Shown: positions 1,833 to 24,343 of the stretch, piece by piece
Position numbering within the stretch: position 1 is the stretch's first letter
How the letters are laid out: each line of letters opens with the position of its first letter
Assembly: GCA_025356695.1 (NCBI GenBank)
Contig: JANXSE010000198.1
Coordinates: 1 to 25,599, forward strand
Direction: 5' to 3'
Length of the DNA: 25,599 nucleotides
Source: Betaproteobacteria bacterium
Lineage (GTDB): Bacteria > Pseudomonadota > Gammaproteobacteria > Burkholderiales > SG8-41
Notes under the pieces: model-generated
Told to the model about the DNA's origin: nothing
What the model saw: only the letters and a program-made list of their open reading frames with translations
Database searches by the model: none
Position numbers and translations under genes: made by a program

Positions 1833-2798
1833 CTATTCAGCCTTGATGCCGGCTTCCTGCACGACCTTGACCCAGCGCTCGTACTCGCCGCGGATGCGCT
1901 CGCCGAATTTCTGCGGCGTGCCGCCGGTGGCAACCATGCCTTGCGCATCGAGGTTTTTCTTCATGTCGGCGGTCTGCAAGGCCTTGTTGATAGCGTCATT
2001 CACGCGATCGATGATCGGCTGCGGCGTGCCGCGCGGCGCCATCGCACCGAACCACAGTTCGACCTGATAGCCGGGCAGCGTTTCCGCAATCGTCGGCACG
2101 TTTGGCAGCGAATACCAGCGCTTGGCGGTGGTCACCCCCAGCGCACGCAGCCTGCCGGTTTCGAGATAGGGCACCACCGGCAGCAGGCTGCCGACGATGA
2201 TCGGCGCCTGGCCCGACAAGAGGTCGGTCATGGCCGCGCCCGTGCTCTTGTAAGGCACGTGCACCATCTTGATCTTTGCCATGCTGACAATGAGTTCTGT
2301 AGCCAGATGGGTAAGGCCGCCCATGCCGCTGGAAGCGTAAACCAGTTGTCCGGGTTTGGCTTTTGCCAGCGCGATGAACTCTTTGGTCGTCTTCGGCGGC
2401 AGCGACGGATGCACCGTCAGCACGAAGGGCGTGACGCCGAACTCCGCCACCGGAATGATGCTGTTGACCGGATCGAAGACCGGCTTGTGGGTCGCGGCAG
2501 TGGCCGAGAAACTGCCGGACATCATCATCAGCGTATAACCGTCGGGCGGCGCCTTCGCCACCATCTCCATGCCGATCACACCACCCGCGCCACCGCGGTT
2601 ATCCACCACGAACTGCTGACCAAGCGCCTCGGTTAGCTTGGCCGAGAACTGGCGCGCAGTGATATCGCTGCCGCCGCCGGGTGCAAACGGCACGACGACG
2701 CGTACCGTTTTAGCCGGATAGGTCTGGGCGATGACCGGACCAGAAATCGCCACCGCCACAAGCAACGTGCAAATCGTTTTCGTACCGTTTGTTTTCAT
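1833..2798 (-). CDS. Bug/TctC-family periplasmic solute-binding protein
   Basis: A 321-residue exported binding protein of the tripartite tricarboxylate family, expected to capture a carboxylate-type ligand in the periplasm. The start at 2798 is set by a GGAGG 6 bases upstream and by a signal peptide (residues 1-24, cut near VIA|QTYP). The mature N-terminus begins with the family's YPxKxVRVVVPF, then PGGGSDITARQ, VVDNRGGAGG and PDGYTL, followed by HVPYKSTG. These are the hallmark segments of the two-lobed Bug fold. It is the last Bug gene of the long minus-strand series, separated from the next one upstream by a GC-rich palindromic spacer. No TctA or TctB gene is near. Confidence 0.93.
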   Translation of the reverse strand: MKTNGTKTICTLLVAVAISGPVIAQTYPAKTVRVVVPFAPGGGSDITARQFSAKLTEALGQQFVVDNRGGAGGVIGMEMVAKAPPDGYTLMMMSGSFSATAATHKPVFDPVNSIIPVAEFGVTPFVLTVHPSLPPKTTKEFIALAKAKPGQLVYASSGMGGLTHLATELIVSMAKIKMVHVPYKSTGAAMTDLLSGQAPIIVGSLLPVVPYLETGRLRALGVTTAKRWYSLPNVPTIAETLPGYQVELWFGAMAPRGTPQPIIDRVNDAINKALQTADMKKNLDAQGMVATGGTPQKFGERIRGEYERWVKVVQEAGIKAE

Positions 2799-2879
2799 TT
2801 TTTCCTCCGTTTTTGTGTTCCTTTCCCCCTTGCGGGAGAAGGTCGGGATGGGAATGTTCGCTGCCTGCCCCCTCCCCAA

Positions 2880-2906
2880 CCCTCCCCCGTTACCCACGGG
2901 GGAGGG
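2880..2906. repeat. GC-rich intergenic palindrome
   Basis: CCCTCCCCCG and CGGGGGAGGG form a perfect 10-bp stem around a 7-base loop. It lies in the 152-bp gap between two Bug genes. No T-run follows on either strand, so it resembles the C/G-rich dispersed intergenic repeats of proteobacteria more than an intrinsic terminator. A second C/G-rich imperfect dyad sits at about 2822-2840. Confidence 0.6.
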
Positions 2907-2921
2907 CGTTCTCGCTGTCGC

Positions 2922-2945
2922 TCAATCCTGATTCCTAAATCCTGC
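2922..2945 (-). repeat. GGATT-type short tandem repeat after a stop codon
   Basis: On the minus strand three near-copies of a 7-9 base unit based on GGATT(T/C)A occur just after the stop of the Bug gene at 2951. Related arrays follow the stops at 3934 and 9057. Confidence 0.45.
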
Positions 2946-2950
2946 CTCCA

Positions 2951-3919
2951 TCACTCCGGCTTGATGCCCGAACTCTGTACAACCCTGGCGTACAGCGCGG
3001 TCTCTTTGCGGATATGCGCGGCCAGCTGCTCACCCGGCGCGGCGACGACTTCGCCGCCCTGGCTGGCCATGCGTTCGCGCACGTCGGCACGCGCGAGCAC
3101 CGTCATGAAATCAGCCTGCAGCTTGGCGGTAATTTCGCGCGGCGTACCGGCCGGCGCAAAGATGCCGACCCAGGTCGTGATATCGAATTCAGGATAGGTC
3201 TCGGCAATGCCCGGCACCTTCGGCAATATCGCCGCACGCTTCGCCGACGACACCGCGATCACGCGCACGCGACCCGAGTTGATATGCGTCATCGCGCCGG
3301 TGATGTTGGCAAACATCAGGCCGCACTGGCCGGCAATGACATCGATGAACGCGGGTGCGGCGCCCTTGTACGGCACGTGGTTCAACTTCATGCCGGCGAG
3401 CGCCTGCAGATGCTCCATCGCCAGATGCTGCAGATTGCCGACACCGGCTGACGCATAGTTGATCTGGCCGGGACGCGCTTTCGTAAACGTCACCAACTCC
3501 TTCACCGACTTCACCGGCAACGACGGATGCACCACCAGCACCATCGGCGAGGCCGAGACGGTAATCACGGGGATGAGATCGCGCTGCGCGTCGTACGGCA
3601 TTTTTTTCTGCAGACTCGGATTGATCGTAATCGGCCCGGCGTTGCCGAGCAGCAGCGAATAACCGTCCGGCGCGGCACGCGCCACTGCCTCGGCGCCGAT
3701 ATTGCCGCCAGCGCCGCCGCGGTTGTCGACTACCACCACCTGATTCCAGATTTCCGTCAGGCGCGGGCCGAGCAGGCGCGCCAGCTCATCATAGGGGCCG
3801 CCGGCGACATAAGGCACGACCACACGCACGGGTTTTGATGGATAGGTTTGCGCATGCACCGTTGCAACAGCAGCAAATGCCAATGCCGCATGCGCGACAA
3901 ATTTCATTCGGGTCATCAT
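2951..3919 (-). CDS. Bug/TctC-family periplasmic solute-binding protein
   Basis: 322 residues. The start is one of two adjacent ATGs (3919 or 3916), with AGGA 5 bases upstream of the first. Signal peptide is residues 1-23 (MKFVAHAALAFAAVATVHA core) and the mature chain begins QTYPSKPVRVVVPY. Family landmarks are GGPYDELARLL, VVDNRGGAGGNIG and PDGYSLLL near the N-terminus and HVPYKGAAPAF in the middle. It starts 14 bases after the stop of the preceding Bug gene, so the two are probably co-transcribed. Which carboxylate it binds cannot be told. Confidence 0.93.
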   Translation of the reverse strand: MMTRMKFVAHAALAFAAVATVHAQTYPSKPVRVVVPYVAGGPYDELARLLGPRLTEIWNQVVVVDNRGGAGGNIGAEAVARAAPDGYSLLLGNAGPITINPSLQKKMPYDAQRDLIPVITVSASPMVLVVHPSLPVKSVKELVTFTKARPGQINYASAGVGNLQHLAMEHLQALAGMKLNHVPYKGAAPAFIDVIAGQCGLMFANITGAMTHINSGRVRVIAVSSAKRAAILPKVPGIAETYPEFDITTWVGIFAPAGTPREITAKLQADFMTVLARADVRERMASQGGEVVAAPGEQLAAHIRKETALYARVVQSSGIKPE

Positions 3920-3921
3920 CG

Positions 3922-3936
3922 CTATCCTGAATCCTA
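3922..3936 (-). repeat. Short GGATT-type repeat overlapping a stop codon
   Basis: The minus strand reads CTAGGATTCAGGATAG, two copies of the GGATTCA-like unit, overlapping the TAG stop of the upstream Bug gene. The second copy also supplies the AGGA ribosome-binding site for the downstream Bug gene. Confidence 0.4.
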
Positions 3937-4908
3937 GTTTTCCGGTTTAATGTTCGCTGTCTTGATCACCTGCGCCCACTTCGCGGTTTCCGCTTTGATC
4001 TTGGCCGTGAATTGCTCCGGCGTGCTGCCGATCACTTCGGAACCCTGGGCACCGAGCAGTTCGCGCACGTCGGGTTGGCGCGCAATTTTCATCAATTCGG
4101 TGTTCAGTCTTGTTATCACCGCCGCCGGCGTTTTCACCGGCACGACGATGCCGTGCCATGAAGTCGTCTCGTACGTCGGATAACCCGATTCGGCGACGGT
4201 TGGAATCTCCGGCGCCGAATGCGCGCGCTTCGCGCTGGTCACCGCCAGCGCGCGAATGCGGCCCGCTTTCACATAGGGCGTTGCCGGCAGCAGGTTGATG
4301 AACCAGATCTGGATCTGTCCCGAAATGACATCCGTTACCGCCAGGCTGGCGCCTTTATATGGCACGTGCACAAGATCGATGCCGGCGGTAATTCTGAAAA
4401 GCTCCGCCGATAGATGGTTGCCGGTACCCACACCGCCCGAGGCAAAGGTGAGCTTGCCCGGACTGGCTTTCGCCAGCGCGACGAGCTCTTTGACGCTGCG
4501 CGCGGCCACAGTGTTGCTCAAAGCGAATACGTACGGCGATTCGGAAAGCAGCGACACCGGCGCAAAATCGCGCAGCGGTTGATACGGCAGCTTGGGCGTC
4601 AGGCTGGGTTGCACCGACATCGTGCCGATCACGCCGAGCAGCAGCGTATAGCCATCAGGCACTGCACGCGCGGCGATTTCGCAGGCGATCACGCCGGCGG
4701 CTCCACCGCGATTGTCCACCACCACCTGCTGACCCAAGGCGTCGCCGAGCTTCTGCCCGAAAATGCGCGCAACAATGTCGGTCGGCCCGCCGGTCGGAAA
4801 CGGCAGAATCAAACGCAGCGGGTGATCGGGATAGTCGGCGGCAGCCGCCGTGTTTGCGCCACCGGCGGCAACGCAAAGACCTGCGAACAACAGACTTCTG
4901 ATGTGCAT
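3934..4908 (-). CDS. Bug/TctC-family periplasmic solute-binding protein
   Basis: 324 residues beginning MHIRSLLFAGLCVAAGG, with AGGA 5 bases before the ATG. The signal peptide is cut around residue 23 (AAA|DYPD). Seen in order: YPDHPLRLILPF, PTGGPTDIVARIF, VVDNRGGAAGVI, PDGYTLLLG, HVPYKGASLAV. In the segment that normally reads IGxEx(V/A)A this copy has IACEIAA, which puts an unusual Cys in a conserved loop. Only 7 bases separate it from the preceding Bug gene, so it is almost certainly in the same transcript. Confidence 0.93.
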   Translation of the reverse strand: MHIRSLLFAGLCVAAGGANTAAAADYPDHPLRLILPFPTGGPTDIVARIFGQKLGDALGQQVVVDNRGGAAGVIACEIAARAVPDGYTLLLGVIGTMSVQPSLTPKLPYQPLRDFAPVSLLSESPYVFALSNTVAARSVKELVALAKASPGKLTFASGGVGTGNHLSAELFRITAGIDLVHVPYKGASLAVTDVISGQIQIWFINLLPATPYVKAGRIRALAVTSAKRAHSAPEIPTVAESGYPTYETTSWHGIVVPVKTPAAVITRLNTELMKIARQPDVRELLGAQGSEVIGSTPEQFTAKIKAETAKWAQVIKTANIKPEN

Positions 4909-4915
4909 TTCGTTC

Positions 4916-5884
4916 CTACTCTATTTTCAGATTGATGCGCTTGCCCAGGCGCGCATATTTTTCGATATCGGCAACGAGGTAACGCGCGAATTCATCGCTC
5001 GGCATACCAACCGGCTCGGCGCCGAGATTGGCAATTTTTTCGCGCACGTCCGGTTCCTTCAAAGCCTTCAATACTTCGGCAAGCACGCGGTCGGTGATTT
5101 CGCGCGACGTTTTCGCCGGCGCATACAAACCGTACCAGCCGCCGATTTCGGCGTCACGGATGCCGAGTTCATTGAGCGTGACGAGATCCGGCAGCAGATG
5201 CGAGCGCCGCATGCCCATCTGCGCAATGCCGCGCAAACGCCCGGCCTTGATCGGCGGAGTCATCGAGATCGGGCTCGCGAACATCATGTCGATATGGCCG
5301 CCCAGAAGATCATTCAATGCCGGCGTTGCGCTCTTGTACGGCACATGCGTGATGTTGGTGCCGGTCGCCGCCTTGAACAGTTCGCCGGCGAGATGCAGCG
5401 TGTTACCGTTGCCGGCCGAGCCGAAGGTCAGCTTGCCCGGGTTAGCCTTCGCCAGCGCCACGAGTTCTTTCACTGACTTCACCGGCAGCGACGGATGCAC
5501 GCCGATCACCATGCCGGCCGATTCGCCAACCAGCGTCAGCGGAATAAAGTCTTTGAGCGTATCGTACGGCAGCCTCGGATGCAGTGCCGCGTTCGTGGTG
5601 TGCGAGCCTGTCGTCAGCAAATACGTATAACCATCGGGCGCAGCACGCGCGACCATCTCAGTGCCGATAATGCTGTTGGCACCCGGACGGTTGTCGATGA
5701 CGAACTGCTGTTTGAACGCATCGCCGATACGCTGACCGATTACGCGACCGACCGCATCCGGCGGTCCGCCGGCCGCCCATGGCACAACCAGGCGGATCGA
5801 GCGGCTCGGATAATTCTGCGCCTCGGCAATGGCGCCGTACGCCAGAGCAGGCAATAACACTGCAATCAGTATGCGTTGCTTCAT
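4916..5884 (-). CDS. Bug/TctC-family periplasmic solute-binding protein
   Basis: 322 residues with a GAGG ribosome-binding site 8 bases before the ATG. Signal peptide is residues 1-22 (MKQRILIAVLLPALAYGAIAEA). Landmarks are YPSRSIRLVVPW, AAGGPPDAVGRVI, VIDNRPGANSIIG, PDGYTYLLT and HVPYKSATPAL. The ligand-loop motif is GGPPDAVGR, differing from the GGxxDxxAR of its neighbours at the Ala position. An 82-bp gap precedes it, larger than the gaps downstream, so an additional promoter there is possible but I see no strong one. Confidence 0.93.
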   Translation of the reverse strand: MKQRILIAVLLPALAYGAIAEAQNYPSRSIRLVVPWAAGGPPDAVGRVIGQRIGDAFKQQFVIDNRPGANSIIGTEMVARAAPDGYTYLLTTGSHTTNAALHPRLPYDTLKDFIPLTLVGESAGMVIGVHPSLPVKSVKELVALAKANPGKLTFGSAGNGNTLHLAGELFKAATGTNITHVPYKSATPALNDLLGGHIDMMFASPISMTPPIKAGRLRGIAQMGMRRSHLLPDLVTLNELGIRDAEIGGWYGLYAPAKTSREITDRVLAEVLKALKEPDVREKIANLGAEPVGMPSDEFARYLVADIEKYARLGKRINLKIE

Positions 5885-5966
5885 GGAATGACCTCGTGCT
5901 TTTTCGACGCCCCCAAAGAGGCGCTATGTTACTGCATCGTGCCCGCGTCACCGGTGATGCACATTT

Positions 5967-6929
5967 TTATTCCGGCTGAATTCTGGCGTCACGTACGATG
6001 TCGGCGTAGCGTTTCATCTCGCCGAGGAAGAATTTGCGGAATTCCTCCGGCGTGCTGCCGACCGGCTCGTAACCGCCGCTGATCAGCACCTCGCGTACTT
6101 TCGGCTCCTGCAATGCCGCGTGTATGGCACGCTGGATTTTTACGATGGTGTCGGCGGGCACGCGGGCCGGCGCGAAAATGCCGTCCCAGCCGGCGGCGAT
6201 GGTAAACCCCGGTACGGTCTCGGCGAGGGTCGGCACCTCCGGCATCAGATTCCAGCGCACCGGCCCGGTGAAAGCGAGCGCGCGTGCGCGGCCCGACTTT
6301 ACCTGCGGCACCGCGATAGTCGGCGGCATGAAAGCAAGCTGCACCTCGCCTGCCATCACCGCGGTCAATGCAATACCGATGCCCTTGTACGGCACGTGCA
6401 GCATCTGCGTGCCGGTGCGCAACTTAAAGACCTCACCTGCCAGATGCAGTGAATTGCCGTAACCGGGCGAACCGAAAGTCAGTTTTGACTCGGGATTCTT
6501 TGCCAGCGCGATGAGTTCCTTCACCGAGGCAGCGGGTAATGAAGGCCCGGCGACCAGCAGAAAACCCACTGCGGCGCCCACCGAGGTCACCGGCACAAGA
6601 TCGCGCAGCGTGTCGTACGGCAGTTTCTTGTAGATGCTGGGATTCAGCGAAATCGACGATGACACATACAGCAGCGTGTGGCCGTCGGGCGCCGCGCGCG
6701 CGACGAGTTCGGTGGCGATGATACCGTTGGCGCCGACGCGGTTATCCACCACCGCCGGCTGACCGAGCTGGCGTTCGAGCTGCCCGGCTACCACGCGCGC
6801 GTTGACGTCGGTGGTACCGCCGGCCGGAAACGGAATCACCAGCCGTAGCGGTCGCAATGGAAAATTCTGCGCCGACGCTGCGACAGAAAGCGTCAGCGCC
6901 GCACACGCTGTGACAACGCGCGAAGTCAC
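5967..6929 (-). CDS. Bug/TctC-family periplasmic solute-binding protein (GTG start)
   Basis: 320 residues starting at a GTG only 3 bases after the stop of the DapA-like gene, with AAGG overlapping that stop. Translational coupling between the two is therefore likely. Signal peptide is residues 1-20 (cut ASA|QNFP). Family segments are FPLRPLRLVIPF, PAGGTTDVNARVV, VVDNRVGANGIIA, PDGHTLLYV (His where Tyr is usual) and HVPYKGIGIAL. The coupling suggests that this protein delivers the substrate used, directly or after one step, by the DapA-like enzyme. Confidence 0.93.
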   Translation of the reverse strand: MTSRVVTACAALTLSVAASAQNFPLRPLRLVIPFPAGGTTDVNARVVAGQLERQLGQPAVVDNRVGANGIIATELVARAAPDGHTLLYVSSSISLNPSIYKKLPYDTLRDLVPVTSVGAAVGFLLVAGPSLPAASVKELIALAKNPESKLTFGSPGYGNSLHLAGEVFKLRTGTQMLHVPYKGIGIALTAVMAGEVQLAFMPPTIAVPQVKSGRARALAFTGPVRWNLMPEVPTLAETVPGFTIAAGWDGIFAPARVPADTIVKIQRAIHAALQEPKVREVLISGGYEPVGSTPEEFRKFFLGEMKRYADIVRDARIQPE

Positions 6930-6932
6930 GCC

Positions 6933-7952
6933 TTACTCTGGGTTCCGGCTGACAAAATATTCGCTGTCCGGATCGTCCGTGACCTTGAGGCCGGATTTTT
7001 TCAAACCTTCACGCAGGATGCGCATATTACGATCGACGATCTTCATGGTCGGCTGGCGCAGCGGTCCGCCGTTGAAACCGGCCAGCCAGTTCTGGTATTT
7101 CCAGTCCATGCGGTTGATCACCGAGGTGCCCGGCATATAGCTGTTGCCGGCGGCTTTCTGCGCCATGCGCGCCGGGTGGATCTGCCAATAAATTTTCATT
7201 GCCGCGTCGAAGTTGCCATCGCGTGCGAGGTTGAACATTTTCGGCACCATGTCGCCGAAGTAACCGGTGTTGCTGGTTCCGGAGAACTGTATAGGCGCGA
7301 AACCCATGAACGGAATCGCATCGGCTTCGAGCGGGCTGGTGACGATCACTTCATGCGAGTGATTTTTCCACGCCTCGACAAAACCCGCCGGTGTCGGCAT
7401 GCCGGCCTCGGCTTTGATGCAGACGATGTTCGGTATTTCCTTGACCATTTTCTTCACGAGTTCCGGGTCCATGCCGGCCGGATGGATGCGCTCGAAACCC
7501 CAGTGCGGCACCGGAAACAGAATCACGCCGAGCTGCGTCGCATCGCAAAATGCTTTGGTGTAATCGTAAATGTGCTGGTTGGTGGTGGCGAAAAAATTCT
7601 GCGGGTATCCGAGCAGCACGATTTCGGCGCCGGCTTTCTCCGCTGCCTGCACCGCGGCGATGTTCTCTTTAAGCGTACCGAAACCGGCATGGTGTATCAG
7701 CTTCAGCTTGCCGCCTGCCTCATCGTGCGACCATTTCACAAACTGCGTGTATTCATTAACCGTGATCGCCACCTCGGAAACCAGCAGCGTGCCCCAGAAA
7801 CCATAGTTGATGCAGGTGCGGATGTCGTGGCGTATGCCCTTCTCGCTCAGGCGTTCCATGTCCTGCGTGTACGAGGGAATGACGACGTTGGCCACACCCT
7901 TCATGTTTTCGCGTGCCCACGCGCGTGCTTCGCTCTTCTTGTAACCGGCCAT
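6933..7952 (-). CDS. Dihydrodipicolinate synthase (DapA)/N-acetylneuraminate lyase superfamily protein
   Basis: 339 residues, start ATG 7952 with AAAGG upstream. The superfamily uses a Schiff-base lysine to make or break C-C bonds of 2-oxo acids in a TIM barrel. The expected lysine is K180 in IPNIVCIKAE, matching the IKE motif of DapA. The position of DapA's catalytic Tyr in ILYNVP is Phe146 here (ILFPVP), and the GTTGE loop is replaced by GTLLVSE (residues 54-60), so it is not a true lysine-biosynthesis enzyme. The closest relative in the window is the paralogue at 9057-10076: I count 142 identities in the first 190 aligned residues. It lies in a DapA-Bug-DapA-Bug series, suggesting a catabolic lyase or hydratase on an imported oxo acid. 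Confidence 0.88.
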   Translation of the reverse strand: MAGYKKSEARAWARENMKGVANVVIPSYTQDMERLSEKGIRHDIRTCINYGFWGTLLVSEVAITVNEYTQFVKWSHDEAGGKLKLIHHAGFGTLKENIAAVQAAEKAGAEIVLLGYPQNFFATTNQHIYDYTKAFCDATQLGVILFPVPHWGFERIHPAGMDPELVKKMVKEIPNIVCIKAEAGMPTPAGFVEAWKNHSHEVIVTSPLEADAIPFMGFAPIQFSGTSNTGYFGDMVPKMFNLARDGNFDAAMKIYWQIHPARMAQKAAGNSYMPGTSVINRMDWKYQNWLAGFNGGPLRQPTMKIVDRNMRILREGLKKSGLKVTDDPDSEYFVSRNPE

Positions 7953-7968
7953 TTCAAACACCTTTCGT

Positions 7969-8934
7969 TTATTGAGGTTGTATGCCAACCAGTTTCGCAA
8001 AATTCGCCTGCACAACCAGATCTTCCTTGATGAACGTATTGAATTCTTCCGGCGTCGTGCCGGTCGCGAAATAATCCGCTTCGGCGAGATAGCGGCGCGC
8101 CTCAGGCGTCGCCAGCACTCTCACCATTTCGCTGTTCATGCGGCGTACGATATCCACCGGCACACCGGCCGGAAACAACATGCCGTGCCAGCAGATGACG
8201 TTATAGCCGGGCAACCCGGCTTCCATGATGGTCGGTACCTCGGGCAGCGTCGGCAGGCGCTGCGGACCGGCGATGCCGAGCGCGCGCAAACGGCCCGAGG
8301 GCAGGTACGGCCGCGCCACCGCGGCGGTGACGAACATCATCTCGATATGCCCGCCGACGACATCGGTAAATGCCGGCGGGTTGCCCTTGTACGGCACGTG
8401 CACGAGGTCAATGCCCGCCATCGACGCGAACACCGCGGCACTGACGTGCTGCGGGCTGCCAACGCCGGCCGAAGCGTAGTTGAGCTGCCGCGGCCGCGCT
8501 TTGGCAAAGGCAATGAATTCCTTCACCGTGCGTGCCGGCACAGACGGGTGAGCAACCATCAGATTGCCGGAGGTAACGTCGATTTGTGTAATCGGCGCGA
8601 AGTCGTTGAGCGTGTCATAGGGCAGTTTCTTGTAATACGCAGCGTTGCCGGTGTGTGCACAGTTGGCGGCGAGCATTGTGTAACCGTCACGCGGCGACTT
8701 GGCAACCAGATCACTGCCCAGCGTGCCGCTGGCGCCGGGACGGTTATCGATAATGAAAGACTGTCCCATCGTTTCAGTAAGGCGCTGCGTAAAAATACGC
8801 GTCAACGTTTCGACCGGGCCGCCGGCGGGAAACGGCACGATTACGCGCACCGGTTTGACCGGATAGGTTTGGGCGTGCGCAGTTGTGATTGCAATCGCGC
8901 TCAGCCCTGCAACGAACAGGAATCTGTTTTTCAT
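7969..8934 (-). CDS. Bug/TctC-family periplasmic solute-binding protein
   Basis: 321 residues; ATG at 8934 preceded by GGGA. Signal peptide is residues 1-22 (MKNRFLFVAGLSAIAITTAHA), mature start QTYPVKPVRVIVPF. Landmarks are PAGGPVETLTRIF, IIDNRPGASGTLG, PRDGYTMLA and HVPYKGNPPAF. In the ligand loop the usual Asp of GGxxDxxxR is Glu (GGPVETLTR), the only such change among the nine copies, so its binding preference may differ. It sits 16 bases upstream of the DapA-like gene at 6933-7952 and 122 bases after the other DapA paralogue. Confidence 0.92.
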   Translation of the reverse strand: MKNRFLFVAGLSAIAITTAHAQTYPVKPVRVIVPFPAGGPVETLTRIFTQRLTETMGQSFIIDNRPGASGTLGSDLVAKSPRDGYTMLAANCAHTGNAAYYKKLPYDTLNDFAPITQIDVTSGNLMVAHPSVPARTVKEFIAFAKARPRQLNYASAGVGSPQHVSAAVFASMAGIDLVHVPYKGNPPAFTDVVGGHIEMMFVTAAVARPYLPSGRLRALGIAGPQRLPTLPEVPTIMEAGLPGYNVICWHGMLFPAGVPVDIVRRMNSEMVRVLATPEARRYLAEADYFATGTTPEEFNTFIKEDLVVQANFAKLVGIQPQ

Positions 8935-9021
8935 TTTCCCGTCTCCTCGAACAATCAGCGCCGTATGCCCCACCGCCGCCCGCCCCCGCGCTACGCGCAA
9001 GGGAGGGAGTCCCTTTGATCA

Positions 9022-13934: not shown

Positions 13935-13982
13935 CAAAAAACGATGCCGCCGTCCCGGCCCGTTGCAGGCAGGGACGGCGGC
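13935..13982 (-). terminator. Intrinsic terminator of the thioredoxin-peroxiredoxin operon
   Basis: On the minus strand GCCGCCGTCCC and GGGACGGCGGC form a perfect 11-bp stem with a 15-base loop, followed within a few bases by TTTTTT. It begins 4 bases after the stop codon at 13987. It therefore closes the reading frame that lies beyond the in-frame TGA of the peroxiredoxin, supporting that this downstream part is a real gene end. Confidence 0.88.
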
Positions 13983-13986
13983 AGGA

Positions 13987-14544
13987 TTACTTCAGCTTCG
14001 ACAAAACTTCCAGCATCTCGTCATTGGGCACGAGTCCGCGCGGGTCGGTCACCCGCGCATAAACCACGACGCCATTCTTGTCGACAATGAACCACGAACG
14101 CTTTGAGCGCAGATACTGCGGGATGCGCGCTGGATCATTTGCAGCCGTTGCATCGTCATTGAGCACGCCATAAGCACGTGAAATCTGGCGGCGAAAATCG
14201 GTGAGCAACGGATAAGTCAGGCCGAGCTTCTGGCCCCACGCCTTGTTGGCGTCATTGAAGTCAACACTGATGCCCAGGACCTGGGCATTTGCGGCTTCGA
14301 ACTTGGGAAGATCAAGTTGGAAAGCCAGCGCTTCCTGCGTTCAAGTGTTGGTGAATGCGCCGATGTAAAAGAAAAGTATCGTATTTTTCTTGCCGGCGAA
14401 ATCTGCGAGCGCAATGTCCTTGCCCGTAGTAGACGGCGCCGAAAACGCCGGGGCTTTATCGCCGACCTCTATCGCCGCTGCCGCCGCTGCCCATGCCACC
14501 AGCAGAAAACCTGCCAACAACTGTCGCCATCGTGTTGCCTGCAT
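13987..14544 (-). CDS. Exported peroxiredoxin with predicted selenocysteine at the catalytic position (in-frame TGA 14341-14343)
   Basis: Read through one TGA, this is a 185-residue AhpC/TSA-type peroxiredoxin, a peroxide reductase. The start ATG 14544 has GGGGGG just upstream; a longer start at 14568 is less likely. Residues 1-24 are a signal peptide (cut about AAA|IEVG), so it acts outside the cytoplasm. Domain landmarks are APAFSAPSTTGK (31-42), FFYIGAFTNT-U68-TQEALAF, VLGISVDFND and the conserved Arg149 in KRSWFIVDKNG. U68 occupies the peroxidatic Cys site: family motif TxxC with Thr at -3, although the usual Pro is Ile61. There is no Cys at all in the mature chain, so it is a one-Sec enzyme needing an outside reductant, plausibly the UxxC protein encoded 40 bases upstream. 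A terminator follows the TAA. The alternative, a nonsense-mutated pseudogene, is unlikely because the frame and conservation continue for 117 residues. Confidence 0.87.
14293..14326 (-). promoter_or_regulatory. Candidate SECIS hairpin of the peroxiredoxin gene
   Basis: Starting 15 bases after the TGA, GGCTT pairs with AAGCC and, inside a small internal loop, AACTTG pairs with CAAGTT. The apical loop begins 29 bases after the TGA, within the range of bacterial SECIS elements. A G opens the loop only if the last G-C pair is unpaired (GATCTTCCC). The fit is therefore moderate. Confidence 0.5.
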
Positions 14545-14584
14545 AAGACCCCCCATGGTTAATTGCACTTACAACAAATCAATT

Positions 14585-15130
14585 CTATGAACGTTCTGAC
14601 AGCGCTTTGACGTAATTGCGGAATGCCGGACTCAGCATGTCGACGGGGCCGTAACCGCCGCCGACGAGATTGCCGTTGCGATCGATGATGACGGTCCACG
14701 GCGCTACGCGCACGCCGAGCGAACGCGCAAACTTCATGTCCGGATCAAGCGATACCGGCAGCGTGTACTTGTGTTCGGCGAGGAAAGGTTTGACTGCCTT
14801 GCCACCGTCGCCGTCGAGAGAAATCGCGAGCATGGGTATGCCGCTTTTCTGGTATTCCTGCTGAGCCCTCTGCACGGAGGGCATCTCACCTACGCAGATG
14901 TCTCACCAGGTTGCCCAGAAGCGGGCGACGATGACTTTGCCTTTGTAGTCGTCGGTCTTCATCGTGCCGCCCGCCGCGGTCGGCAGATTGAATGCGGACA
15001 GTTTGGTTGCCGCTGACGGCGCCGAGAGGCCTTGCGGTAATGGCGGCAAATCGGCGGCGATTGCATTTGCGGACAGCAACGCGACTGCCAACAATGTGAC
15101 GGTCCGGATGCACGTTTGGAAAATTTTCAT
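14585..15130 (-). CDS. Exported TlpA-like thioredoxin with predicted selenocysteine in a UxxC active site (in-frame TGA 14903-14905)
   Basis: Read through one TGA, this is a 181-residue thioredoxin-fold protein of the TlpA/DsbE type. ATG 15130 has GGAGGA 4 bases upstream. Residues 1-25 are a signal peptide (cut AIA|ADLP). The active site is FWATW-U76-DIC79-VGEMP, that is WCxxC with the first, attacking Cys replaced by TGA and the resolving Cys kept. The rest of the fold follows in frame: ISLDGDGG, a DPDMKFARSLGVRV segment and the cis-proline loop A143-P144 before WTVIIDRNGN. U76 and C79 are the only redox residues of the mature protein. It likely reduces substrates outside the cytoplasm, with the adjacent peroxiredoxin the obvious candidate. 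A candidate SECIS hairpin follows the TGA. A gene call that stops at TGA would split it into 14903-15130 and a false ORF starting at the Met at 14884. Confidence 0.88.
14865..14882 (-). promoter_or_regulatory. Candidate SECIS hairpin of the thioredoxin-like gene
   Basis: GCCCTC and GAGGGC form a perfect 6-bp stem around the loop CGUGCA. The loop starts 27 bases after the TGA and has G then U at positions 2-3. This agrees with the bacterial SECIS pattern: a stem-loop with G in the first two loop bases, loop about 16-37 bases from the UGA, inside the coding region. Confidence 0.65.
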
Positions 15131-15215: not shown

Positions 15216-16199
15216 TTATTCGGCGCGCGCGCCCGACTCTTTGACCACCTTCGCCCACTTGACGATTTCGGACTTGATATAAGTGGCGAACTCCTCCGGC
15301 GTAGTGCCTGAGGCTTCCGTTCCGGTGGCAAGCAAACGCTCTTTCACCTCCGCCACATGCAGGAGTTTGACGACCTCGCTGTTCAATCTCGCGACGATGG
15401 CCTTCGGCGTGCCGGCCGGCGCCGCCATGCCGTACCAGGTAATCGCTTCGAAGCCGGGGAGCGCCGCTTCGGCGATGGTCGGCAGCTCGGGCGTGGTCAG
15501 CGAGCGTTTCGCGCTGGTCACCGCAATCGCTTTCAGCTTGCCGGCTTTCACTTGCGGCAGTGCCGGCGGCATGGTCGAGAACATCAGCTGCACCTGCCCC
15601 GCGAGTAGATCGGTCAATGCCGGCGCCGCGCCCTTATATGGAACGTGGACGAGTTTTACGCCGGCCATGGTGTTGAACAATTCACCGGCAAGCTGCGCCG
15701 GCGTACCCAGCCCCGACGAGGCAAAATTGATTCTGCCCGGGCTCGCCTTTGCCAGCACGATCAGTTCTTTAACCGTATGCGCCTGCACCGACGGATGCGC
15801 CACCAGCAGATTGGGCGTCGCGCCGGCAAGCGTAATCAATGCAAAATCCTTCAACGGATCGAACGGCAGCTTGCCCATCAAACTGCCGTTGATCGAGAAC
15901 GGGCCCGACAAGGCCATCACCAGCGTGTAACCATCGGGCACCGCTTTGGCGACGATGTCGGTGCCGATATTGCCACCGGCACCGCCGCGATTATCAACAA
16001 TGATTTGTGTGCCCAGCGCTTCGCCGAGTTTCTGCGCGATGGTACGACCGGTGATATCGGAACCGCCGCCCGGCGGAAACGGCACAACGAGGCGGATCGG
16101 CCGGTCGGGATAATTCTGACCGGTCGCAGGAAACGCCGACAACGCTGCGCTTGTGATTAACACCGCTGCCACTGCGCGCCATTTTATTTGATACTGCAT
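15216..16199 (-). CDS. Bug/TctC-family periplasmic solute-binding protein
   Basis: 327 residues. I place the start at ATG 16199, with AAAGG upstream and a signal peptide right after it (MQYQIKWRAVAAVLITSAAL, cut near residue 28). The in-frame extension to 16370 would put a long Arg/Lys-rich tail before the signal. Landmarks are YPDRPIRLVVPF, PPGGGSDITGRTI, IVDNRGGAGGNIG, PDGYTLVMA and HVPYKGAAPAL. Its C-terminal KSEIVKWAKVVKESG resembles the Bug proteins ending at 16255 and 18089, so these three may be a local duplication group. It ends 85 bp before the selenoprotein pair. Confidence 0.93.
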   Translation of the reverse strand: MQYQIKWRAVAAVLITSAALSAFPATGQNYPDRPIRLVVPFPPGGGSDITGRTIAQKLGEALGTQIIVDNRGGAGGNIGTDIVAKAVPDGYTLVMALSGPFSINGSLMGKLPFDPLKDFALITLAGATPNLLVAHPSVQAHTVKELIVLAKASPGRINFASSGLGTPAQLAGELFNTMAGVKLVHVPYKGAAPALTDLLAGQVQLMFSTMPPALPQVKAGKLKAIAVTSAKRSLTTPELPTIAEAALPGFEAITWYGMAAPAGTPKAIVARLNSEVVKLLHVAEVKERLLATGTEASGTTPEEFATYIKSEIVKWAKVVKESGARAE

Positions 16200-16254
16200 T
16201 GTTTTACCTTTCAAAACTATATTAGTGTGACGCAAGGCCGCTAGTTTACGCGCC

Positions 16255-17235
16255 TCAATGCGCTGCGTCGGCTTTGACTCCCGCTGCCTGCAGAACCTTC
16301 GCCCATTTGAGAATTTCCTGCCTGATATAAGCGGCGAACTCTTCCGCGCTATTGCCGACGGGATCGACACCCTGCGCTTTCAGACGTTCCCTGACGTCGG
16401 TCACCTTCAGCGCCGCGGCAATTTCACTGCTCAGCTGTACGATCACATTGCGCGGCGTGCGCGCCGGCGCCAGCACACCGTACCAGGAGCCGGACTCATA
16501 ACCGGGCAAGCCCGATTCAGCGACCGTCGGCAATTCCGGCATCACCGCCGAACGTGCGCGCCCGGTCACCGCAATCGCACGCAGGCGCCCCGAACGCACA
16601 TGCGGCAGAGTCGTCGGACTGGTCCCGAACATCAGTGCGAGCCGTCCGGCAACTAGATCGTTGATGCCGATGCTCGCACCTTTGTACGGCACATGCGTGA
16701 GTTTGACGCCGGCGACAATGTTGAACAGCTCCGCCGCGAGATGCGGTGCGTCACCGGTGCCGGCCGATGGAAACAGCAGTTCGCCCGGCTTGGCTTTGGC
16801 CAGCGCGATCAGTTCAGTAACCGAGTTGATGGGTTGTGACGGATGCACCGCCAGTATCAGCGGCGTGGTCGCCACCAGCGACACCGGCGCGAAATCGCGG
16901 ATCGAATCGTACGGCAGCTTGCTTACCAGCGTGACATTGATTGCCAGTGTGCTGCTCGACATTACCAGCGTGTAGCCATCGGGCGCCGCCTTCGCCACCA
17001 GCTCCATGCCGATGATGGTGGTGGCGCCGGGACGGTTATCGACAACGACTGATTGCCCGATGTTTTTCGACATCGCGGCGGCAAGCGTGCGCGACACCAG
17101 ATCGTTGCCGCCGCCGGGCGCGAATGGCGAAATCAACCGCAGCGGACGCGATGGAAACTCTTCCGCGGCGGGCGCAACCGTCGCCAGCAGCAACAGCGCA
17201 ACGGGCAGCGGCGCCCGCAAAAAACTAACTCTCAT
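16255..17235 (-). CDS. Bug/TctC-family periplasmic solute-binding protein
   Basis: 326 residues from ATG 17235, a start that overlaps the last codons of the upstream alpha/beta hydrolase gene (hydrolase stop at 17225). A longer start at 17250 is also in frame. The overlap indicates translational coupling. Signal peptide MRVSFLRAPLPVALLLLATV is cut near APA|AEEF. Landmarks are FPSRPLRLISPF, APGGGNDLVSRTL (Asn before Asp), VVDNRPGATTIIG, PDGYTLVMS and HVPYKGASIGI. The coupling suggests that the imported or sensed compound is related to the hydrolase substrate or product, possibly an ester or lactone. Confidence 0.92.
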   Translation of the reverse strand: MRVSFLRAPLPVALLLLATVAPAAEEFPSRPLRLISPFAPGGGNDLVSRTLAAAMSKNIGQSVVVDNRPGATTIIGMELVAKAAPDGYTLVMSSSTLAINVTLVSKLPYDSIRDFAPVSLVATTPLILAVHPSQPINSVTELIALAKAKPGELLFPSAGTGDAPHLAAELFNIVAGVKLTHVPYKGASIGINDLVAGRLALMFGTSPTTLPHVRSGRLRAIAVTGRARSAVMPELPTVAESGLPGYESGSWYGVLAPARTPRNVIVQLSSEIAAALKVTDVRERLKAQGVDPVGNSAEEFAAYIRQEILKWAKVLQAAGVKADAAH

Positions 17236-18058
17236 GACAAGCGGTGCCATCGTGTTGCGCAGCGAAATGCAGCACCTGTGTCGCGCACGATGCCGGTTGC
17301 GTGCAATGCAGATTGTGAAAATGCGAAGGTAGATGCACCAGCCGCAGGTTGCGCACGTTTTTCTTTAACGCCTCTTCCTGTTCCGGCGTGGAATGCGTGT
17401 CATGCGACGGATAAATTACCAGCGTCGGCGCTTCAATACGCGCGAGATAAGGTGTGGTATCGAGGCCGTAGGTAAATTTCTGCATGTTGATCATGACTTC
17501 GAGATCGGACTTGCCCTGCTCCGCCGCGAACCATTCCATCAGCCCCGGATCGGTGCCGGGCGGAAAGCGATCGGCGCCGTTCTTGGCGCGCGCGTAAGCC
17601 ATCGGCCCGAGCTTGCGCAGCGCGGCCTCGCCCACACCGACCCGCTGCGCCGCGGTCGCGTTGAGCCGCACTGGTGCCGAAACGAGGCTCAGTGTACGCA
17701 CGCACTGCGGCCGCTCGGCCGCAAACAGCATGCCGATGATGCCGCCGGTCGATTCGCCGCAATAGTGGACGGTTTCGGCGCCGACAGCATCGAGTATCGC
17801 CTCAAGATCGGCGATCCAGTTCTGCACCGAGAACCCGCTCTTTACATCGAAATCGCGCGACGACTGCCCGAGTCCGCGCAGATCGGTGCGCACCACTTTG
17901 AAAAAACGCGCCAGATACGGCACCCACTGGTACCAGAATTTCGATGAACGCGCGAAGCCGTGCTGCAAAACCATTACCGGCGCATTGCGCCAGGGATCGG
18001 TGTAATCGTCGAGTTCGTAATGCAGCGCGGGCTGGCCGCGGCGTTCAACGGTGGGCAT
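17225..18058 (-). CDS. Alpha/beta-fold hydrolase
   Basis: 277 residues, no signal peptide, so cytoplasmic. The fold is shown by the oxyanion segment VLQHGFARSS, the nucleophile elbow CGESTGG (Ser is the nucleophile), an Asp in YPSHDTHS after the last strands and a His in SHFHNLH near the C-terminus, completing a Ser-Asp-His triad. The sequence resembles lactonase/esterase members such as 3-oxoadipate enol-lactonase, but no substrate can be assigned. The last 25 residues (CTQPASCATQVLHFAAQHDG) contain several His and Cys. An A-rich stretch, not a classic Shine-Dalgarno, precedes the ATG. It lies between two Bug genes, 30 bases from the one upstream and overlapping the one downstream. Confidence 0.88.
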   Translation of the reverse strand: MPTVERRGQPALHYELDDYTDPWRNAPVMVLQHGFARSSKFWYQWVPYLARFFKVVRTDLRGLGQSSRDFDVKSGFSVQNWIADLEAILDAVGAETVHYCGESTGGIIGMLFAAERPQCVRTLSLVSAPVRLNATAAQRVGVGEAALRKLGPMAYARAKNGADRFPPGTDPGLMEWFAAEQGKSDLEVMINMQKFTYGLDTTPYLARIEAPTLVIYPSHDTHSTPEQEEALKKNVRNLRLVHLPSHFHNLHCTQPASCATQVLHFAAQHDGTACHES

Positions 18059-18088
18059 TTTTTTTATGCGCGCGGAAACACGCCATCC

Positions 18089-19063
18089 TTATTCCGCTTT
18101 GATTTTGGCGGTCTTGATGACTTTCGCCCACTTGGCGATTTCTGATTTTATATAAGCACCGAATTCGTCGGGCGTGCTGCCGACCGGCTCGAAACCCTGC
18201 GCCAGCAATTTTTCTTTAGTGTCCGCCACTGCCAGCAATTTGATGATTTCGCCATGCAATCTGGTGACGATTGTTTTCGGGGTACGCGCCGGCGCCAGCA
18301 CGCCGTACCAGGTTGAAACTTCATAACCTTTGACGCCCGCTTCGGCGATGCTCGGCAGATCGGGCAGCGATTGCGAGCGCTTCGCGCTGGTAACGCCGAG
18401 CGCCCGCAGCTTGCCCGATTTCACATGCGGCATGGCTGCCGGCGTCGTCGTCATCATGAATTGCATCTGCCCCGACATCAGATCAACCATTCCCGGTCCG
18501 CCGCCTTTATACGGCACGTGCACGACCTCAATACCGGTCATCATCGCCAGCAATTCCGGCGCCAGATGCGAAGAGCTGCCGATGCCGGCCGACGAATAAT
18601 TCAGCGCGCCCGGCTTCGATTTAGCGAGCGCGATGAACTCCTTGACCGTTTTCGCCGGCAGCGACGGATGCACGATCAGGATGTTCGGCGTCAATGCAAC
18701 CAGACTGATCGGCTCGAAATCGTTGACCGGATCGTACGGAATTTTCGCGAACAGGCTGACGTTGATCGCGTTCGGCGCGACGTTGCCCATCATCACGGTG
18801 TAACCATCGGGCGCCGCACGCGCGACGATTTCGGTGCCGATATTGCCGGTGGCGCCACCGCGATTGTCGACGACTACGGTTTGACCGAAAGTCTCACTCA
18901 GTTTCTGCGCCACCATGCGGCCGACGATGTCGGTGCCGCCGCCGGGCGGATAGGGAACGATCATGCGGATCGAACGTGTTGGATAAGCGTCTTGCGCCAT
19001 CGCCGGCGCTATAGCTGCAGCAAAAGCTATTACGAGCGGCAGGCAACTATTGAGCATGCGCAT
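18089..19063 (-). CDS. Bug/TctC-family periplasmic solute-binding protein
   Basis: 324 residues; the ATG at 19063 lies 11 bases after the stop of the oxidoreductase gene, with a GGGA upstream. Signal peptide is residues 1-23 (cut AMA|QDAY). Landmarks are YPTRSIRMIVPY, PPGGGTDIVGRMV, VVDNRGGATGNIG, PDGYTVMMG and HVPYKGGGPGM. Close spacing to both neighbours makes an oxidoreductase-Bug-hydrolase-Bug-Bug operon likely. Its C-terminus (KSEIAKWAKVIKTAKIKAE) is close to the copy ending at 15216. Confidence 0.93.
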   Translation of the reverse strand: MRMLNSCLPLVIAFAAAIAPAMAQDAYPTRSIRMIVPYPPGGGTDIVGRMVAQKLSETFGQTVVVDNRGGATGNIGTEIVARAAPDGYTVMMGNVAPNAINVSLFAKIPYDPVNDFEPISLVALTPNILIVHPSLPAKTVKEFIALAKSKPGALNYSSAGIGSSSHLAPELLAMMTGIEVVHVPYKGGGPGMVDLMSGQMQFMMTTTPAAMPHVKSGKLRALGVTSAKRSQSLPDLPSIAEAGVKGYEVSTWYGVLAPARTPKTIVTRLHGEIIKLLAVADTKEKLLAQGFEPVGSTPDEFGAYIKSEIAKWAKVIKTAKIKAE

Positions 19064-22147: not shown

Positions 22148-24343
22148 ATGAAAACCATCAACAGAACCGCAACGCCCGATCTGTCACGACGTCGCTTTAT
22201 CGTCAGCTCCGCCGCAGCCGCGGGCGGCCTCGCCATCGGCTTCAATCTGCCGGGCGGCGCGCATGCCCAATCAGCCGCCGGTGTTGAAGTCGATGCCTGG
22301 GTGGTGATCAAGCCCGACGACAGCTGCGTAATCCGTTTCGCGCGCACCGAAATGGGCCAAGGCACACGCACCGGCATTGCGCAGCTCATCGCCGAAGAAC
22401 TTGAGTGCGACTGGGACAAAATCGTCATTGAATCGGTGACGCCGCAGGACAATCTCGCGCGCAAACGCGCGTGGGGCGAAATGCTCACCGTCGGCAGCCG
22501 CGGCATACGCATCTCGCAGGATGCCGTGCGGCGCGGCGGCGCGGCCGCCCGCATGCTGCTTTTGCAGGCCGCGGCCAGCGAGTGGAATGTGCCGGTAACT
22601 GAGTTGAGCGTGGACAAAGGCGTCATCCGCCACGCCGCCTCGAACCGCATGACGACCTACGGTAAGGTCGCCGCCGCTGCAGCAAAATTGCCGGCGCCCG
22701 ATACAAAATCGCTCAAACTGAAAGACATGCGCGACTGGAAAATCGCCGGCAAGCCGCTGAATCGCGTCGACACCGCAGGCAAACTCGACGGCAGCCTCAT
22801 CTACGCAATCGACGTCAAACTGCCCGGCCTGCTCAATGCCGCGATCAGGGATTGCCCGGTGTTCAGCGGCAAGCTCACCAGCTTTGACGGCAGCAAGGCC
22901 CTGACCATGCCGGGTGTGCGCAGCGTGATCCGCGTCGATGCCAGCGCAGTTGCCGTGATTGCCGACACCTGGTGGCATGCAAAAAAAGCGCTCGACGCCG
23001 TCACTATCGTCTGGGATGAAGGCCCGAACGCAGCGGAATCGAGCGCGACCATTGCCGAACGTTTGCGCGACGGCCTCAGCACGCAAACCAAAGTGCATGC
23101 CTTCCGCAACGAAGGTGACGCATTGAAGGCCATCGCCGGCGCGGCGAAGAAAATCGAAGGCACCTACAGCACACCGTTTCTGAATCACGCGACCATGGAG
23201 CCGATGAACTGCACGGCGCGTTACACCGCCGACAAATGCGAAGTATGGGTGGCGACACAGGACCTCGACGGCTGCCATCTGCAGGTGTCGAAGTCCTCCG
23301 GACTGCCGCTGGAGAAATGTTTCGTCAATCGCTACGATCCGGGCGGCGGTTTCGGCCGGCGCGGCCGCGTCTCGGATTTCGCGCGCCAGGCGGTCGATAT
23401 CGCCAAACAGTTTCCGGGCATCCCGGTCAAAATGATCTGGACGCGCGAAGAAGATATGCAACACGGCCAGTACCGGCCGATCTCAATGTGCAAGTTCAGC
23501 GCCGGGCTTGACGCGCAAAACAATCTCGTCGGCATGCATGTGCGCATGTCGGGCCAGTCGATCAACGCCTGGGTCAATCCGGCGGCGATCATCGACGGCT
23601 ACAAGGACGACCGCCAGTTGCAGGGCTGGTACGCGCAACCCGACGACCAGCAGCTCGGTTACACGATACCGAACCTGCTGATCGAATACGCGATCCGCAA
23701 TACGCATGTGCCGGTCGGCACCTGGCGCGGCGTCAACATTCCGCAGAACGGTTATTACATGGAGTGTTTCATCGAGGAAATCGCGCGCGCCGCCGGTATC
23801 GATTCACTCGAATTCCGGCGTTCACTCGCACGAAATCACCCGAAACATCTGGCGATACTCAACACCATCGCGGAAAAAGGCAACTGGGGCAAACCGACGC
23901 CGCCGGGTGTATTCCGCGGCATCGCGCAGGTCATGAGCTACGGCACCTATTCCGCCGCAACCGCCGAGGTATCGGTAGCCAAAAACGGCGACGTCAAAGT
24001 CCACCGTATGGTGCTCGCCGTCAACGTCGGTCATGCCGTCAACCCGGGGCAAATCGCGGCGCAGATCGAAGGTTCCATCGTCTATGGGCTGTCAGCAACA
24101 CTGTGGGGTGAAAACACAGTTGAAAAAGGCCGCATCGTCGAAACCAATTTTCACAACTACCGCGTGCTGCGGCTTGCCGAAATGCCGAAGGTCGAAACGG
24201 TAATCGTTGCCAACGGTGATTTCTGGGGCGGCATCGGCGAGCCAACGATTTCGGTTGTCGCGCCGGCAGTCGTCAATGCTGTAAGTCTCGCGATCGGCAA
24301 GCCGTTGCGTAATCTGCCGTTGAAAAACCAGAAGCTCGTCTAG
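22148..24343 (+). CDS. Xanthine dehydrogenase-family molybdopterin-binding subunit (isoquinoline 1-oxidoreductase beta-like), Tat-exported
   Basis: 731 residues; GGAGG 6 bases before the ATG. The N-terminus has SRRRFIVSSAAAAGG (13-27), a Tat signal. The protein binds the molybdenum cofactor and hydroxylates N-heterocycles or oxidises aldehydes using water. Motifs seen are ARTEMGQGTRTGIAQLIAEEL (early, with E68-MGQG), the GGGFGRRG loop in the middle and, near the C-terminus, WGGIGEPTISVVAP with the catalytic Glu698. The single-chain IorB-type length and Tat signal are typical. Its usual partner, a small [2Fe-2S] protein of about 150 residues, is not encoded next to it. Electrons might pass to the diheme cytochrome encoded convergently 24 bases away, but this is inference. 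Confidence 0.9.
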   Translation: MKTINRTATPDLSRRRFIVSSAAAAGGLAIGFNLPGGAHAQSAAGVEVDAWVVIKPDDSCVIRFARTEMGQGTRTGIAQLIAEELECDWDKIVIESVTPQDNLARKRAWGEMLTVGSRGIRISQDAVRRGGAAARMLLLQAAASEWNVPVTELSVDKGVIRHAASNRMTTYGKVAAAAAKLPAPDTKSLKLKDMRDWKIAGKPLNRVDTAGKLDGSLIYAIDVKLPGLLNAAIRDCPVFSGKLTSFDGSKALTMPGVRSVIRVDASAVAVIADTWWHAKKALDAVTIVWDEGPNAAESSATIAERLRDGLSTQTKVHAFRNEGDALKAIAGAAKKIEGTYSTPFLNHATMEPMNCTARYTADKCEVWVATQDLDGCHLQVSKSSGLPLEKCFVNRYDPGGGFGRRGRVSDFARQAVDIAKQFPGIPVKMIWTREEDMQHGQYRPISMCKFSAGLDAQNNLVGMHVRMSGQSINAWVNPAAIIDGYKDDRQLQGWYAQPDDQQLGYTIPNLLIEYAIRNTHVPVGTWRGVNIPQNGYYMECFIEEIARAAGIDSLEFRRSLARNHPKHLAILNTIAEKGNWGKPTPPGVFRGIAQVMSYGTYSAATAEVSVAKNGDVKVHRMVLAVNVGHAVNPGQIAAQIEGSIVYGLSATLWGENTVEKGRIVETNFHNYRVLRLAEMPKVETVIVANGDFWGGIGEPTISVVAPAVVNAVSLAIGKPLRNLPLKNQKLV

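Follow-up and report, generated by a model that had tools for sequence, protein, structure and literature searches.

In Caulobacter crescentus, the periplasmic protein TlpA reduces a periplasmic peroxiredoxin, PprX, as part of the chain ScsB-TlpA-PprX, and PprX reduces H2O2 and cumene hydroperoxide (Cho et al. 2012, according to the accounts in PMC5403849 and PMC9144841). Peroxiredoxins with selenocysteine (Sec) form a described family (PF00578/COG1225, motif TxxU) that includes the Eubacterium acidaminophilum enzyme (PMC9312934), and a peroxiredoxin-like thiol:disulfide oxidoreductase with a UxxC motif (PF00578) is also a listed selenoprotein family (PMC13188914, PMC9312934). SAO and Tso are selenoprotein operons; the 2026 review that treats them names other selenoprotein pairs and operons and cites a Methylomirabilota metagenome-assembled genome (MAG) with 63 selenoprotein genes (PMC13188914). 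In the Global Ocean Sampling data, one read is reported with a neighbouring Prx/Prx-like 2 pair (PMC2398784).

We analysed a stretch of 25,599 nucleotides of betaproteobacterial DNA (contig JANXSE010000198.1; the window), in which a first-pass annotation had proposed a tandem pair of exported selenoproteins, a UxxC reductase and a one-Sec peroxidase. The ScsB-TlpA-PprX chain is the closest working model for this pair, likened at the level of the pathway: in both, a thioredoxin-like TlpA would take electrons from a transporter in the membrane and hand them on to a peroxiredoxin in the periplasm (PMC5403849, PMC9144841). Unlike in that chain as described there, both soluble partners here are predicted to carry Sec, and no membrane partner lies beside the pair except for a ccdA-like gene in two loci. 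The peroxiredoxin has the AhpC/TSA fold and the Sec at the peroxidatic position in common with the known Sec-containing family (PMC9312934) but differs from its described members in an export-like N-terminus, the lack of any Cys and the lack of the Pro of the PxxxTxxU motif (PMC13188914). Its neighbour shares the AhpC-TSA domain and UxxC with the listed oxidoreductases; what sets it apart is the Sec-peroxiredoxin partner, a pairing that goes unmentioned in the relevant parts of PMC13188914 and PMC9312934. The ocean read likewise places a Sec-peroxiredoxin beside a UxxC peroxiredoxin-like selenoprotein, but Prx-like 2 is described as a weak pfam04592 group, the evidence is a single read, and kinship with our pair may or may not exist (PMC2398784). 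SAO and Tso also combine several selenoproteins in one operon, but from other protein families (PMC13188914). What appears to be new is the pairing, both protein kinds being known selenoprotein families already. The pair is undescribed in the sections of the literature that our searches covered (including PMC13188914, PMC9312934, PMC5029168, PMC1794560, PMC2398784, PMC5403849, PMC9144841, PMC5909903 and PMC4491210), and it may stand in primary catalogues such as the Methylomirabilota MAG study.

Layout of the locus and the two predicted proteins

On the minus strand, the TlpA/ResA-like gene (14585..15130) comes first and is followed, after a gap of 40 bp, by the AhpC/TSA peroxiredoxin gene (13987..14544). 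The peroxiredoxin gene has an alternative start at 14556, and its TGA (14341..14343) is codon 68 when counted from the ATG at 14544 and codon 72 from the ATG at 14556. A script that located the nearest start codon in three relatives (L001-L003) matched 14544, not 14556. This start fits the 40-bp gap, and the spacing, shared strand and U68 numbering of the first-pass annotation therefore stand. Its further claim that the pair ends at a single terminator agrees with a strong hairpin and U-run 3' of the peroxiredoxin gene (13936..13983, minus strand), a probable intrinsic terminator with a folding energy of -36.1 kcal/mol that none of 200 shuffles equalled (z = -7.0). A simple terminator scanner (loop rule 3-8 nt) listed no terminator, and no sigma-70-like promoter was listed. 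The two genes most likely form one operon. Elsewhere in the window are several minus-strand genes for TctC, the tripartite tricarboxylate transporter receptor (1833-9000 and 15216-19063; 4/4 tested scored as TctC), and a plus-strand gene for a large protein with molybdopterin cofactor-binding domains (22148-24343).

Signal peptides had been proposed for both proteins. We applied our own simple basic/hydrophobic/AxA rule to sequences of at least 165 aa, and export-like N-termini were recognized in 29/30 TlpA-like and 29/31 peroxiredoxin sequences, those of the window included. Both proteins are therefore probably exported.

The TlpA-like protein comprises 181 aa. An in-frame TGA (14903..14905, minus strand) is codon 76 in the context WATW-U-DIC and would form, together with C79, the UxxC redox pair that had been reported for this protein; beyond U76 and C79, the only Cys is C7, which falls within the signal region. 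Positions C76 (U being treated as Cys), C79 and P144 were invariant across 30 TlpA-like sequences, P144 being, by alignment, the presumptive cis-Pro position. Pfam assigns AhpC-TSA/Redoxin to this protein as well as to the peroxiredoxin. The best structural match of its AlphaFold model (pLDDT 91.0) was 3kcm (TM 0.90 by target), followed by TlpA and ResA, so that fold, motif at the CxxC position and cis-Pro position of the TlpA/ResA group are all present. Against the NCBIfam model WAxxUGC_long (NF041054) the protein scored 50 bits, below the cut-off of 300, and its motif is UDIC, not the UGC motif of that family.

The peroxiredoxin of the window contains no Cys and has U68 as its sole Sec, exactly as first noted. 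Across the set of the window, L001-L031 and L045, the relatives' peroxiredoxins also had no Cys outside the signal region, with the exception of C78 in L010. Having no resolving residue, the enzyme would need an external reductant. Its AlphaFold model (pLDDT 88.5) matched Bcp4 (3hjp, 0.91) and AhpE (4x1u, 0.92). The domain, the fold and the active-site Thr and Arg of the AhpC/TSA family were found, Thr and Arg being largely kept among relatives; the column that we take to be the catalytic Arg of peroxiredoxins is R in 125/130 rows. The score against the NCBIfam equivalog PrxU (NF040737) was 50.4 bits, far below the cut-off of 270. As the Sec forms of its clade lack the active-site Pro of PxxxTxxC/U, we lowered the identity to a peroxiredoxin with an altered motif, still placed in the superfamily by domain and fold.

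Conservation of the TGA codons and the hairpins behind them

A genome scan returned at least 558 confirmed relatives, of which the best 80 were kept and the codons read in the best 31 loci. The active-site TGA of the peroxiredoxin was present in all of these best 31. The TlpA-like gene adjoined it in 29, the other two loci (L017, L031) being cut by a contig end, and both genes carried a TGA in 27 of the 29 adjacent pairs, while L029 and L030 had a Cys-type TlpA. Within L001-L028, the TlpA TGA was found in 27/27 loci that contain the gene (L017 is cut), and together with L045 these sequences gave 28 TGA-bearing TlpA-like proteins, all of which retain UxxC. In the family of our reference genome G001, 42/74 genomes yielded 43 peroxiredoxin matches (E<=1e-45), each with exactly one TGA. 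A class-wide draw matched in 4/185 genomes (E<=1e-30), with a TGA in G001 only; in the genus of G022, TGA forms of the peroxiredoxin occurred in 4/4 genomes.

Orthologues keep each TGA, which occupies the place of a catalytic Cys, and Cys homologues exist, which is the pattern expected of a bacterial selenoprotein gene. On the strength of this conservation we read both TGAs as Sec codons, and the two genes as selenoproteins of the kinds named at the outset, a Sec-peroxiredoxin and a UxxC thioredoxin-like protein. The Sec machinery was counted in the carrier relatives, the window's own genome standing outside this count. SelB scored above cut-off in 30/32 carrier genomes (G008 and G032 fell below it with shorter matches), and tRNA-Sec was recovered from 30/32 (absent from the results for G006 and G012). 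In the G001 family, SelB was above cut-off in 66/74 genomes, non-carriers included; the Sec machinery alone is thus no predictor of the pair.

Behind the TlpA UGA lies a hairpin (14864..14883, minus strand; apical loop CGUGCA) in which 97.3% of the aligned cells were paired and three pairs showed two-sided changes; slid controls paired to at most 67.0%. In shuffles that leave the kinship among sequences in place, 0/500 reached the covariation score, and 19/500 equalled the hairpin in how many pair types occur. Most often, CCC/CCT on one side changes together with AGG/AAG on the other, and the outermost pair is unformed in the window's own sequence. Judged by these comparisons, the hairpin is a putative SECIS element, conserved and covarying. 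The counterpart in the peroxiredoxin gene (14297..14321, minus strand) was 96.8% paired with one two-sided pair, and 17/500 shuffles matched its covariation score; it is a weakly supported putative SECIS. Neither hairpin was unusually stable in the window sequence (z about -0.5), and no Rfam family reached its gathering cut-off anywhere in the window.

Linkage of the two genes across genomes

The first-pass annotation had suggested a survey of co-occurrence for both Sec and Cys forms. In the G001 family, 40/43 peroxiredoxin genes were preceded, in the same orientation, by a TGA-bearing TlpA gene at a distance of 32-84 bp between the ends of the profile matches, and the three exceptions (G224, G017, G031) all lie at contig ends. 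Eleven TlpA matches without a stop were found in nine genomes of the family, none of which had a peroxiredoxin match at E<=1e-45. In a draw of 399 genomes of the order, with at most eight candidates per genome scored, the peroxiredoxin occurred in 15 genomes and TlpA in the same 15. The genes were adjacent in 14; in the remaining genome, G318, they lie near the ends of two contigs. The chance of hitting the same 15 genomes under a uniform draw that ignores kinship is near 1.7e-27. In the family and order searches, the TGA form of TlpA was never found in a genome without the peroxiredoxin, and it was adjacent wherever the contig allowed. The possibility that homologues are never neighbours in other genomes, which would have spoken against the pair, clearly fails, adjacency being near absolute in the G001 family.

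A second group of carriers belongs to the phylum of G030, which we take, judging by how L030 and L045 are titled, to be Methylomirabilota. Here 53/95 genomes gave 69 peroxiredoxin matches (E<=1e-35), 58 with one TGA, ten without a stop and one with TAG. Among 30 examined loci, which include the repeats L089 (= L030) and L095 (= L045), 25 pair a Sec-peroxiredoxin with a TlpA-like gene: in seven, a Cys-TlpA gene precedes the Sec-peroxiredoxin gene, and in 18 the Sec-peroxiredoxin gene precedes a Sec-TlpA gene. The latter order is opposite to that of the Betaproteobacteria, a group name that we took from record titles. The other five had no TlpA match. Four of them (L105, L107, L113, L117) carry a Sec-peroxiredoxin of the same clade that looks alone, the flanks of about 1.5 kb on each side showing no TlpA-like gene, and the fifth, L096, has at most a possible TlpA remnant and a ccdA-like gene downstream. 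The partner is thus not always adjacent.

In a quick, midpoint-rooted tree, the pair-linked peroxiredoxins of all arrangements fell into one group with the lone peroxiredoxins and with four Cys forms (SH-aLRT 97, 65 rows), the Cys forms sitting among the Sec forms. Within this clade, the Pro of the PxxxTxxC motif was present in 0/61 Sec rows and in 4/4 of the nested Cys rows; outside it, Pro was found in 37/38 Cys rows and 5/27 Sec rows. The association comprises two independent pairs on well-supported branches (five on all branches), too few for a test, and a Sec form without Pro as against a Cys form with Pro is a lead, not a result. The TlpA tree gave three groups, each supported at 100, and did not discriminate between a single and a repeated origin of the pairing (AU p about 0.5). 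Several MAG titles in the set may be mislabelled, namely 'Chitinophaga pinensis' (L001) and 'Bordetella parapertussis' (L003, L020, L025, L028), because in both trees they fall among sequences whose titles say Betaproteobacteria.

The 6 kb around 30 pairs revealed no clear conserved third gene. Neighbouring genes clustered most often, in 21 loci, into a group whose members mostly have the length of TctC; as TctC genes are frequent in the window, we did not regard this group as a partner. Searches of viral contigs gave no confirmed relatives of either protein, and plasmids gave none by DNA or by peroxiredoxin protein search. In PHROGs, the TlpA-like protein had no match and the peroxiredoxin matched one family of unknown function.

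A candidate peroxide-reducing relay and its alternatives

The proposed coupling of peroxiredoxin and TlpA is well supported by the genomic data, and we consider it probable that the operon encodes a relay for peroxide reduction in the periplasm in which each partner carries Sec. In such a relay, the U68 selenolate of the peroxiredoxin would reduce the peroxide and become a selenenic acid. As the peroxiredoxin lacks a resolving residue, the U76 selenolate of TlpA would attack this selenenic acid, giving a transient mixed diselenide that C79 would resolve into a Se-S bond within the TlpA-like protein. A membrane reductase of the DsbD/ScsB/CcdA kind would then re-reduce this bond with electrons from cytoplasmic thioredoxin. 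Pairs of the L029/L030 type use a Cys-TlpA, and the diselenide step is thus not obligatory. We hold a fuller version more tentatively, as an idea somewhat short of probable: the relay would run through a transient diselenide between U68 of the peroxiredoxin and U76 of TlpA, the Sec-peroxiredoxin would have dispensed with the Pro of the Cys type, and the pairing was maybe assembled more than once, as the opposite gene orders in Betaproteobacteria and the G030 phylum may suggest.

The pair had been called a self-contained redox system, which is too strong because the UxxC protein must itself be re-reduced. The first-pass annotation had also suggested a search for a DsbD/CcdA-type donor elsewhere in the genome. 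A DsbD-type transmembrane domain, a class in which DsbD, ScsB and CcdA were not distinguished, was found in 28/32 carrier genomes; the other four (G011, G019, G030, G032; completeness not given) had no DsbD-type match at E<=1e-10. Beside the peroxiredoxin, such a gene was seen in two loci only, both of the G030 phylum, where a ccdA-like gene, named from its sequence by eye, lies directly downstream of the Sec-peroxiredoxin gene (L096:2106-2831 and L097:2152-2877). The order in L097 (the place of L124) is Cys-tlpA, Sec-prx, ccdA-like. Among seven loci with longer flanks (L124-L130), ccdA occurred only in L124 and L125, the latter being the place of L096.

The genes could instead be co-expressed selenoproteins with separate jobs, the peroxiredoxin being reduced otherwise and TlpA acting on different thiols of the periplasm, such as those of cytochrome c or of copper chaperones. 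TlpA/ResA relatives are indeed described, in the accounts we drew on, for work on ScoI/CoxB and cytochromes, TlpA relatives without a stop occur in G001-family genomes in which the peroxiredoxin was unmatched at E<=1e-45, and 4/30 examined loci of the G030 phylum (five with L096) have a Sec-peroxiredoxin without an adjacent TlpA. Yet the TGA form of TlpA did not turn up without the peroxiredoxin in the family and order searches, and a peroxiredoxin with no resolving residue needs a reductant from outside; we regard separate jobs as unlikely. A different substrate is less likely still. Neither H2O2 nor organic hydroperoxides would then be what the pair acts on, but perhaps reactive species of nitrogen or sulfur, with the peroxiredoxin as a general oxidant sink, and the replacement of the usual active-site Pro in every Sec row of the clade does point to a non-standard active site; the Thr and Arg positions are nevertheless largely kept, and the protein has a peroxidase fold.

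Least probable by far, and already nearly refuted, is that the genes are broken or encode no selenoproteins, each TGA being a true stop, an error of sequencing or the sign of another code (TGA=Trp). Many long database relatives of the peroxiredoxin do show W at the Sec site (P0123, P0124, P0126, P0129, P0154 and others), which probably reflects translation of TGA as Trp by gene callers. Against this reading stand the exactly one TGA in every family match and its catalytic position in all of the best loci, the nested Cys forms, SelB and tRNA-Sec in carrier genomes and the covarying hairpin 3' of the TlpA UGA.

Such a relay would bring together two selenoenzymes that plausibly touch in one catalytic cycle and are kept together in Betaproteobacteria, in an Entotheonella MAG and in a further phylum. 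Their retention as neighbours in many environmental bacteria points to a selenium-on-selenium peroxide defence outside the cytoplasm. The natural variants (Sec/Sec, Cys/Sec and apparently lone Sec) make this a defined system for what Sec buys on each side. It is easily missed, since the database proteins of many relatives start after the TGA.

Other arrangements of Sec-peroxiredoxin genes were also observed. Six Acidobacteriota loci (L032, L033, L034, L035, L038, L046) contain two such genes near each other, both with a TGA and about 2 kb apart in L033, and no match to the TlpA-like protein is listed in these loci. In L129 (2426-3996; the place of L093), a Cys-TlpA gene, a Sec-peroxiredoxin gene and a second, divergent peroxiredoxin-like gene with an in-frame TGA lie in a row.
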